From NCBI GenBank assembly GCA_030432565.1, contig JAUIGV010000002.1:286082-328383 (forward strand): a DNA stretch of 42,302 nt, read 5' to 3'. Source of the DNA: Verrucomicrobiia bacterium (lineage in GTDB: Bacteria > Verrucomicrobiota > Verrucomicrobiia > Verrucomicrobiales > Akkermansiaceae). The translations under genes and the position numbers were made by a program. Under the pieces are notes generated by a model. The model made no database searches, was not told the origin of the DNA, and saw nothing but the letters and a program-made list of their open reading frames with translations. Below, piece after piece: positions 7,369-9,881 of the stretch (position 1 is its first letter; each line of letters starts with the position of its first letter).

Positions 7369-9027
7369 ATGAAGAAGTTTTTGGGAACAGCCCTGATGGT
7401 CCTCTCGCATTGTGCCAGTGCGGCTGCCGGTTCAATTTGGGTGGAAGGTGAATCCGCTGAAAGCAAAACGGTTCAGAAACACGGTTGGTATTCCAGCGTG
7501 AAAACGGATGGTCTTTCCGGTGGCGGATTGTTGAGCCATTGGGGTGGCGAAACGGGAAAGGCCGGATATCAGCTTGCTATTCCGGAAGGAGGAAAATACG
7601 TGCTCTGGGTCCGTGCGAACCCCGTACAGGCCAAGCTGCGGATTCAAGTGGGGGAGGGGAAATGGATGGAACCCAATCTTAAATCGGCAAGCCACGAGCA
7701 GATTAATATCGCCGGTGATGATAAACCCGACCTTCGTTTTATCGCCTGGATCAAGGCGGGTGAATTGACCCTAAAGAAGGGCCCGGTGCCGGTCTCGGTG
7801 GAGTTCGCTTCGGGAAACAATCATCACGGAATGCTCGACTGTTTTTGCCTGACGACCGATCTGGAATGGAAACCCCGGGGTGTTTTGAAGCCGGGTGAGA
7901 AGCCCAGACATTGGCAGATTCAAAAAATCACTGGGGCGAATCTTGATCGCTGGGTCGATTTTATCCGCCCTTCCGGAGAAGAGTTGGGTTGGAGGGCGGT
8001 TCGTTGGCACAGCAGTCTTTCCGAGGCGGCCGAAGAAGCGGAGAAACTGCAACGTCCGATCTTGCTGTGGGCCATGAACGGTCATCCTTGTGGTGAGACT
8101 TGAAACAATGGCGTCATGGGACGACGCGAGATCTGGTCAGACCTCCAAATTCAAAAAATCGCTTCCGAGTATGTCTGTGTGATCGAGGAGACCTTCTTTC
8201 TCTATCCTCCGGACTGGATGAAAAATCCCCCCAATCCGGCTGCGACCAAACTCTTTCAGACCTACGTGGCGAAGTCTCCGGAGGGAACCTTTCCAAGGCA
8301 GACTTCAACGTATCAAGGGCTTTATTGCATGGCGGCAGACGGGACCTATCTTTCCGGGAAGTTTGCGCGTCAAAGTCGTGAAGTGGCCCGTCAGACTTTG
8401 TCCTCCGGTTTGGCCCGATGGAAGGAACTTGCCAGCGAGCGTGGTTACCAATCCAGGTCTGTTCCAACCAACAAGCTGGCTTTGTATGGGGGGGAGGAAA
8501 TTCGCAAGGGTGGGCTTAAGGTAGAAGTGGCCTATCGCGATCTTCCACGGGGCAAAGTGCAGCGCCCGGGCAATGCCCAGTTTCCGAACCCCTACAATCT
8601 GGGGTGGTTTGATTTGAAGCCCGGGGAAGCAAAAGCGTTTGTGACAAACCGTCGCGAGAAGACGGCGATTCCGGATCGTGTTTTCAGGAAGCTCGCCAGG
8701 ACCCGTCTCAAAGATGCCGTGCGAGGACAGATGGCTGATTGGAAAGATAGCGACCTCAAGGAGGGTCAACTTTTCACTCGCTTGGTTTCTACCGAAGGTG
8801 GCGTGCAGACTTACGAATTGAGTGGAAGTGCTTCGCTGGGGGAGGATGGTCTGTGGTTCAGGCCGGAGTTCACGGGAATGCTCAGCTTTGACACATCGTC
8901 TGGAGAGTTCACCGGGTTTAAGTTAGTCGCAGCGGGACAGCGCGCGGGAAAAGGAGGTGCGAATGGCCGGGAAACGGATTTGGGCCCCGCTCCGATGGCA
9001 ATTGCCCTGACCCTTTACAAGCCTTAA
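7369..9027 (+). CDS. Exported CBM-like/thioredoxin-like protein with in-frame TGA (candidate selenoprotein)
   Basis: Two open stretches in the same reading frame, 7369-8100 and 8104-9027, are separated only by TGA at 8101-8103. Read through, they give one 552-residue protein. It has a signal peptide (MKKFLGTALMVLSHCASAAA), a CBM6/35-like beta-sandwich (about 25-165), a thioredoxin-like segment (about 215-300) and a C-terminal domain I do not recognise. The TGA is codon 245 in the motif HPCGET-(TGA)-NNG, right after the beta strand PILLWAMN where thioredoxin-like proteins carry their redox cysteines; C241 is the nearest Cys. The second half starts with ATG at 8116 but has no Shine-Dalgarno sequence and no signal peptide. 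Selenocysteine is inferred. A nonsense mutation or sequencing error is the alternative. Confidence 0.7.
8104..8130 (+). promoter_or_regulatory. Candidate bacterial SECIS hairpin after the in-frame TGA
   Basis: Directly after the TGA, GCGTC (8111-8115) pairs perfectly with GACGC (8123-8127) around the seven-base loop ATGGGAC, which contains a run of three G. A short stem-loop with G in the loop just after UGA is what bacterial SelB-dependent selenocysteine insertion uses. The loop starts 12 bases after the TGA, closer than the roughly 16-37 bases usually described, so the match is imperfect. Confidence 0.35.
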
Positions 9028-9089: not shown

Positions 9090-9881
9090 ATGAATCCAAA
9101 CTGGCTGGGTGTTGTCTCCGGGATCTTGGCTGTGGTGGCTTTTGGCGCAGTTTATCAGAGAGCCAAGAGAGCTACGCCCGAGCGCCTGAGATGGCCCTTG
9201 TTTTTATCAGTGGTGGCTTCGATGCCAGGGGCTGGTTTTACGATCTACTATGCTCATCTTTTTCCTGAAGCGGGGTGGTTTTATCAGTTCCGCAGTGTTC
9301 CAGGGACAGAGTTTTTGGTCATCTTCATCGGGGTTGCTGGTGGCATTTTTGCGGCGTTGTTACCTCGCCTGCTTTTAGTGATCCCTCTTCTTGGCGTAGT
9401 CTTGTTGTCGATTGCTCCAATTGCCAAGCCCTTCATCGGCCCGATTCAAGATGGCACGCTCAAAGATGAATGGGACAGCGAGATTTGCCTTCAAAGTTCC
9501 CCCTCGACATGCGGCGCGGCTTCGATGGCAACGATCTTGAAATATCTGGGCAGTGACGTCACCGAGTCGGAGTTGGCTGCAGAGGCTCATTCGTATGCCG
9601 GAGGAACCGAGGCCTGGTATCTGGCCCGGGCTGCGAGATCACGAGGTTTCAAGGTGCAATTCGATTTTGAATCTGGTTTTTCGCCCGAGGGTGGACTTCC
9701 TGCCGTGGTCGGAGTTCGCCTGGGGTCGATTGGTCACTTTATCGCGATTCTGCGGGCGGAAGGTGACAAGTTCCTCGTCGGGGATCCGCTGAACGGACGT
9801 GAGATCCTTTCCCGCGGAGACCTGCTCACGCGATACAAGTTCAGTGGCTTTCACATGCGCGTAGGAAGCAGGGGTCACTGA
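9090..9881 (+). CDS. Membrane-bound C39-like cysteine peptidase
   Basis: 263 residues. The first 115 are hydrophobic and form three or four transmembrane helices. The soluble C-terminal half is a papain-like C39 domain: Gln135 and Cys141 in CLQSSPSTCGAAS, His216 in GHFIAI and Asp232 in GDPL form a complete oxyanion/catalytic set. C39 domains of peptidase-containing ABC transporters cut double-glycine leader peptides; here there is no ABC part, so the substrate is unknown. It follows the candidate selenoprotein gene by 62 bases. An alternative reading is a bacteriocin-type maturase or a housekeeping envelope protease. A promoter-like TTGCCG-N17-TAATCA (9050-9078) lies just upstream. Confidence 0.82.
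   Translation: MNPNWLGVVSGILAVVAFGAVYQRAKRATPERLRWPLFLSVVASMPGAGFTIYYAHLFPEAGWFYQFRSVPGTEFLVIFIGVAGGIFAALLPRLLLVIPLLGVVLLSIAPIAKPFIGPIQDGTLKDEWDSEICLQSSPSTCGAASMATILKYLGSDVTESELAAEAHSYAGGTEAWYLARAARSRGFKVQFDFESGFSPEGGLPAVVGVRLGSIGHFIAILRAEGDKFLVGDPLNGREILSRGDLLTRYKFSGFHMRVGSRGH

Follow-up and report, generated by a model that had tools for sequence, protein, structure and literature searches.

A gene on the plus strand at 7369-9027 almost certainly encodes a selenoprotein, in which the TGA at 8101-8103 would be read as selenocysteine (Sec) at codon 245 of 552, ahead of the TAA stop codon at 9025-9027. The gene lies in a window (the whole stretch of DNA analysed) of 42,302 nt, positions 286,082 to 328,383 of contig JAUIGV010000002.1 in assembly GCA_030432565.1, from a member of the Akkermansiaceae in the order Verrucomicrobiales. 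The aligned column holds TGA in at least 154 long rows and in five further rows, and the TGA form co-occurs with selA. A candidate new selenoprotein had been proposed here from the letters of the window, and the TGA column, the Sec machinery of the genome and the selA co-occurrence support that proposal. The family is apparently uncatalogued, as judged by Pfam, NCBIfam, the available parts of a 2026 catalogue of prokaryotic selenoproteins (PMC13188914) and searches with motif strings.

The reading frame and its surroundings

In the ORF reading of the window, the frame from 7369 to 9027 is interrupted solely by the TGA at 8101-8103. The segments 7369-8100 and 8104-9027 thus share one frame that is otherwise open, as the original prediction had it. 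The site reads RPILLWAMNGHPCGET-U-NNGVMGRREIWSD, where U is codon 245. Cys241 stands four residues N-terminal of Sec245 (CxxxU in the window gene), which is the spacing noticed at the outset, and the 552-residue read-through product has a computed mass of 61.1 kDa with Cys in place of Sec, in agreement with the roughly 60 kDa anticipated. Judged by eye, the start of the protein (7369-7428, plus strand) is likely a signal peptide, with lysines, a hydrophobic run and small residues. Relatives of the window protein are 96% to 42% identical to it over most of its length. Crude pN/pS ratios in three comparisons were 0.19-0.25 upstream of the TGA and 0.15-0.21 downstream, which points to purifying selection of similar strength on both sides.

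Under ordinary gene finding the upstream ORF terminates at the TGA and an ATG at 8116 opens a separate ORF (8116-9027), which would allow a pseudogene or two split genes produced by a nonsense mutation or a sequencing error. We reject these explanations, whose probability we regard as negligible, on the conserved column and the selection on both sides: the TGA is kept in relatives down to 16% pairwise identity and in a second phylum, the codons downstream of it appear to be under purifying selection, the ATG falls inside the thioredoxin-like domain past the active site and has, by eye, no Shine-Dalgarno sequence at the usual distance (the original prediction had likewise seen none for the downstream half), and a sequencing error is unlikely because many separate assemblies carry the same TGA.

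The gene after the selenoprotein gene (9090-9881) encodes a peptidase C39 domain and was not recurrent beside the relatives in the 21 stretches compared, namely 17 kb of the window and the surroundings of relatives in 20 pieces of 12-15 kb each. Once fragments of the selenoprotein gene are set aside, each protein cluster was confined to at most 5 of these 21 stretches. Neighbours that by their look are sulfatase-like, ABC-like, or planctomycete cytochrome or DUF1501-like proteins were found at varying places.

The Sec column and the Sec machinery

We searched 189 genomes of Verrucomicrobiales and 392 of Planctomycetota (the phylum of the L056 genome), most of them drafts or MAGs. A search with the window protein found matches in 50 of the 189 order genomes, and the matches spanning codon 245 all had one TGA. 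Matches confined to about the first 200 residues contained no TGA and belonged to other, mostly longer proteins. In the first alignment the TGA fell in one column at 49/49 loci (48 from Verrucomicrobia and one planctomycete). These were 49 of the 51 spanning loci; L054 and L055 were dropped as repeats of L023 and L024, and L051, which repeats L022, was not listed. A profile (A1) built from 26 family members matched 106 of the 392 Planctomycetota genomes at 1e-8 and 40 of the 189 order genomes at 1e-20. Its order search gave 54 rows, of which 51 span the column, all with an in-frame TGA (the column alignment covers the fetched loci only), and the other three begin downstream. Five rows were unique to this search, and the column was TGA in 5/5; in a sixth stretch, from G107, the row stopped short of the column. 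In the rest of the phylum, outside the order, A1 matched 17 genomes out of 387 at 1e-5, and among the best five candidates per genome the TGA form was seen in G000 and G091 only (three rows), the other matched rows being short CxxC or other thioredoxin-like matches; with five candidates scored per genome, absence from the others is weak evidence. One short-form relative had no match in a plasmid collection.

A larger alignment included the planctomycete loci, among the matches listed, that extend over the column or come close to it, and omitted the repeats L051, L054, L055, L088, L089, L105 and L109. Every TGA was masked as X, and therefore neither Cys nor Sec was favoured. The 221 aligned rows, among the matches listed, carried TGA (172), Cys (29), a gap (11), Ser (7), Asp (1) or Pro (1). 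Most of the Cys rows (24/29) were thioredoxin-like CxxC proteins whose match ended at most 173 residues past the column. In the remaining five (L241, L243, L247, L248 and L249) a TGA directly follows the aligned Cys; these remote relatives, in which the Cys and the TGA are vicinal (RCU motif), may form a separate selenoprotein subfamily. We counted as long any row with at least 20 residues before the column and at least 200 after it. Among the matches listed, 154 of the 162 distinct long members had TGA, six had Ser, one Asp and one Pro; the seven long Ser rows represent six distinct members, as L056 and L110 share one gene. Three further long rows had the TGA one residue past the column, following a Cys.

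Bacterial selenoproteins usually have Cys homologues at the Sec column, which is not strictly required. Here Cys in place of Sec was found in none of the 154 TGA members and 8 other distinct long members among the matches listed. The original prediction had asked whether Cys or TGA occupies this column and had named a residue that is neither as evidence against a selenoprotein. TGA was found in nearly all homologues and Cys replacing Sec in no full-length member, and the eight distinct Ser, Asp or Pro members, all from the planctomycete sample, strictly touch that clause, at eight against 154 among the matches listed. The Ser form at L056:4227-5396 (the L110 gene) is a planctomycete paralogue that adjoins a TGA copy, and is likely a non-redox duplicate. 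Elsewhere, two TGA copies (L163 and L174, G573:C42:50037-52239) lie in series on the same strand, their match ends about 55 bases apart, and a third TGA copy lies 29 kb from them on the same contig.

The sel genes that were to be looked for are all present over cut-off in the window genome: tRNA-Sec at 54.4 bits against a cut-off of 47 (tRNA-SeC(tca) by ARAGORN), selB at 315.6 against 242, selA at 489 against 268 and selD at 387 bits against 125. The same cut-offs were passed among 14 control genomes by tRNA-Sec in 5, selB in 2, selA in 1 and selD in 2. selA is thus the most specific of the four markers, because the fewest control genomes (1/14) pass its cut-off. One in-frame TGA lies inside the selD match (L018, G000:C73:16415-17344), and SelD of the window genome is therefore probably a selenoprotein too. 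The genome also contains a second copy of the family (L061, G000:C30:205415-206488), which is of the short CxU type, has the TGA and is without the carbohydrate-binding-module (CBM)-like domain.

Within the order, selA was found in 37/39 genomes with the TGA form versus 23/150 others (Fisher p 4e-21, kinship ignored), and the single-protein query gave 35/37 versus 25/152. The corresponding figures for the planctomycete sample were 84/88 and 161/304 (p 1.6e-15, kinship ignored). G107, which was matched only downstream of the codon, was counted among the others and has selA. Three of the selA-less genomes with the TGA form have tRNA-Sec over cut-off: G795 (69.7 bits), G005 (63.3 bits) and G811 (49.0 bits), of which the last says little because 5/14 controls also pass the tRNA-Sec cut-off. 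Completeness is 83% for G005 and 77% for G055. Among genomes with Ser or Pro forms only, G705, G628 and G827 are without selA, and the Ser-only genomes G840 and G905 possess it. This pattern fits a decay of the site without Sec machinery, if not cleanly.

UGA readthrough occurs in bacteria, and the codon might be read by a near-cognate tRNA or act as a programmed partial readthrough switch, with a residue other than Sec inserted. Three drafts (G055, G695 and G745) carry the TGA form, and neither selA nor tRNA-Sec was found in them over cut-off; these drafts and the weak SECIS support in the window gene are what such a reading can draw on. We consider it very improbable, given the strong selA link in two phyla, the hairpins conserved at SECIS distance and the column itself, where the long members among the matches listed show either TGA or a codon for Ser, Asp or Pro, and none for Trp, Arg or Cys. 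Decoding of the UGA as Sec by SelB and Sec-tRNA(UCA) is strongly indicated.

Hairpins downstream of the UGA

The bSECIS rules, as given in the available parts of the 2026 catalogue paper (PMC13188914), specify a loop of 3-9 nt with a G in the first two places, an upper stem of 4-16 bp, a distance of 16-37 nt from the UGA and an energy of at most -7.5 kcal/mol. The candidate bSECIS hairpin in the window gene is GAGAUCU-GGUC-AGACCUC (8128-8145, plus strand), with its loop 31 nt after the UGA. Loop and distance agree with the rules. One A-C mismatch interrupts the stem in the window, where the hairpin has an energy of -2.5 kcal/mol alone and -3.7 kcal/mol with flanks, outside the energy rule. The fdhF element of E. 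coli has a GGUC loop as well. A GGUC-loop hairpin is present in 12/12 members of the window type, defined by the active site CGETU or AGETU and comprising twelve members, including the window, several of which are close kin. Among these twelve, one pair of the stem is A-U in some and G-C in others, and the Ser codon at the 3' side of the hairpin is UCA in 12/12, although UCA makes up 17% of the Ser codons in the stretches concerned. The GGUC hairpin was not found in the planctomycete L056 (CAVVU).

The original prediction had pointed to another hairpin, at 8111-8127 on the plus strand. It does exist (-5.9 kcal/mol, z -2.6), but a G is absent from both of the first two loop positions, and the loop begins 12 nt after the UGA; on both counts this hairpin is outside the bSECIS rules. 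Its stem is found in 6/12 members of the type. Although it is stable in the window, we set it aside as probably not the SECIS element; the hairpin conserved in 12/12 is 8128-8145, and it is this hairpin that most likely would guide insertion in the window gene.

For the other types, comprising 136 distinct sequences, a hairpin between positions 17-21 and 27-31 (numbered from the U of UGA) was paired at 82.8% versus 71.6% in shuffled sequences (sd 1.0; maximum of 1000 shuffles, 75.3%), and versions slid along the sequence gave 27-45%. The pair of third codon bases 18-30 had the top z of 136 such pairs (75% versus 44% expected). These results suggest that in the larger CxU branch third codon bases covary within a hairpin, in counts uncorrected for shared ancestry. 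On average the 45 nt after the UGA did not fold better than control stretches taken from these genes (z -0.41 versus -0.49 to -0.07, with codon-preserving shuffles). Consensus folds by group gave a structure for the window type alone, and none for the CxU, CU and 'other' groups.

Domain plan, proposed chemistry and known families

The AlphaFold model of the window protein, made from 8 sequences, has a mean pLDDT of 69, and the active-site loop (residues 242-246) is below 50. Residues about 22-165 (7432-7863, plus strand) are modelled as a CBM6/CBM35-like beta-sandwich, partly at low confidence. In this predicted model residues 21-163 align with 2cdp at a VIA-align Z of 10.6 (rmsd 2.9, 109 aligned), and no CBM model was among the Pfam matches of the window protein at E<=10. 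The N-terminal CBM6/35-like stretch recurs in TGA-free proteins, with open frames mostly of 480-1050 aa; those of the order at L029-L035, L037-L042, L046 and L050 are mostly 800-1050 aa long. The thioredoxin-like domain (residues 206-359; 7984-8445, plus strand) holds the Sec in its active-site loop, and its predicted model resembles the DsbD C-terminal-like protein 3f9u (Z 12.5 for residues 209-355, rmsd 1.8, 104 aligned), AGR2/AGR3 (Z 10.7) and DsbH (Z 8.8). The C-terminal domain (8446-9024, plus strand) consists of helices and long strands and reached a pLDDT of 76.7 when modelled alone. It had no Foldseek match at E<=0.001, and the best VIA-align Z among the Foldseek candidates (PDB) was 6.6; this lack of a close PDB relative decides nothing as to a new fold.

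The family motif in the window type is GHPxGxxU-NNG. Across the 154 long TGA rows among the matches listed, the Arg at +7 and the Trp before Sec are conserved at 1.0 to two decimals, the Gly-His-Pro before Sec at 0.99, 0.85 and 0.97, and the Asn-Gly at +2/+3 at 0.94 each. Where 3f9u has Gln-Pro, Gln is conserved in the same rows at 0.95 and a Gly follows at 0.98 (from a weak alignment, E 0.34), and the thioredoxin cis-proline may have been lost in the family. The Cys before Sec is less fixed. Among the matches listed, it is at -2 (C-x-U) in 134/172 TGA rows, at -1 in 13, at -4 in 12 (the window kind), at -5 in 2 and at -3 in 1, and 10/172 rows have no Cys within the seven residues before Sec. 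A nearby resolving Cys cannot be general, because of these last rows. That the Cys moves about points to Sec as the indispensable group, for which a resolving partner could come from varied places or from outside.

The conserved recoded codon, the Sec machinery, their co-occurrence and the domain plan, all read from sequence, would fit the following mechanism. After insertion of Sec, the 552-residue protein would be exported, as its signal-like start suggests to the eye, and come to lie in the periplasm or at the cell surface, and the CBM6/35-like N-terminal domain, going by its fold only, might hold it near polysaccharide. The selenolate of the thioredoxin-like domain would be the group that attacks a substrate. 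A nearby Cys (Cys241 here, the Cys of CxU in most relatives) could then resolve the intermediate at selenium by forming a selenenylsulfide, to be reduced afterwards by a thiol system. The explanation of the gene as a selenoprotein gene is, taken as a whole, highly probable in our judgement. The more specific assignment of the product as an exported selenol/thiol oxidoreductase or peroxide reductase we favour by a small degree only. The protein most likely acts in the manner of other thioredoxin-fold selenoproteins, and it falls outside the known families with which it was compared.

Loss of the thioredoxin cis-proline alters chemistry and metal binding. The selenoprotein might then be no thiol oxidoreductase at all, its Sec binding a metal or metalloid or acting as the centre of a peroxidase or dehalogenase, with the Cys being incidental. 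A Cys that shifts between -1 and -5 and is missing in 10/172 rows would agree with this, as would the Gln-Gly (95% and 98%) at the Gln-Pro of 3f9u. The Cys is however at exactly -2 in the great majority of rows, and structurally the domain is near DsbD-C, AGR and DsbH; we regard such a centre as unlikely, if the most serious of the alternatives, and prefer the oxidoreductase. In either case at least 154 long members have TGA and no Cys form was found, and the family is therefore a natural test of selenium versus sulfur. We put forward tentatively, at a little under even chances, that the chemistry of this large Planctomycetes-Verrucomicrobia-Chlamydiae (PVC) family cannot do without selenium: Sec persists as the Cys moves or vanishes, a Cys version does not occur, and loss of Sec leads to a non-redox paralogue with Ser, Asp or Pro. 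If true, this would be a selenium-requiring family missed by methods that seek Cys/TGA pairs, and it would help explain the retention of the Sec machinery in so many PVC bacteria. One would expect ordinary gene callers to break such genes in two or to label them pseudogenes, and a model of the family is needed.

The window protein had no NCBIfam match at E<=1 and no Pfam model over cut-off, Thioredoxin_7 scoring 12.5 bits against 27. When the 26 members were compared with Pfam, Thioredoxin_7 was matched by 13 (best E 4.7e-5) and Thioredox_DsbH by 5. There were weak matches to the VPGUxxT selenoproteins, of type 2 in 7 members (best E 4e-4) and type 1 in 5 (best E 0.0044), and Trx7/PDZ was matched by 2 (best E 0.016). 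These weak matches leave some room for a selenoprotein family already described under another name. The catalogue contains 119 prokaryotic selenoprotein families, and in its available parts some entries give no motif and CxU is present in other families (PMC13188914). Candidate selenoproteins of planctomycetes are also tabulated in PMC4807772, and this family might be among them. We nevertheless consider this explanation improbable: the window protein lacks a match in NCBIfam or a Pfam match over cut-off, as stated, no entry in the available parts of the catalogue has both the family motif and a domain model that finds a match here (PMC13188914), and the exact motif strings were absent from the literature searched, which is weak evidence, alignments being mostly figures.

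Judged by sequence profiles and names, the nearest known families are the VPGUxxT and Trx7/PDZ selenoproteins. VPGUxxT proteins (NF041382 and NF041383) are likewise thioredoxin-like with Sec, and the profile similarity, weak as it is, runs over the thioredoxin-like part. The other copy in the window genome nevertheless reaches about 12 bits, where the cut-offs are 350 and 275, and the VPGUxxT motif occurs in none of the 172 TGA rows among the matches listed, in contrast to the GHPxGxxU-NNG seen here. Trx7/PDZ (NF041199) is by name a Thioredoxin_7-like selenoprotein, but its motif in the available catalogue entry is CxxU, and no PDZ domain was listed in the 26 members.

The motif of SELENOF is CxU, a likeness to the family by motif alone. 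The CxU-type thioredoxin-like Sec.1 family, as far as its available catalogue entry goes, shares the C-x-U that most TGA rows among the matches listed carry (134/172); its domain, PF13192, was however not among the matches of the 26 members, and the window gene has CxxxU and other domains attached. In fold, residues 206-359 of the predicted model are like 3f9u, DsbH and AGR2/AGR3. The window family differs from 3f9u in having Sec in the active-site loop and Gln-Gly for Gln-Pro. Classical thioredoxins and DsbD-C combine CxxC with a cis-proline, whereas the window protein has CxxxU and most of its relatives CxU.
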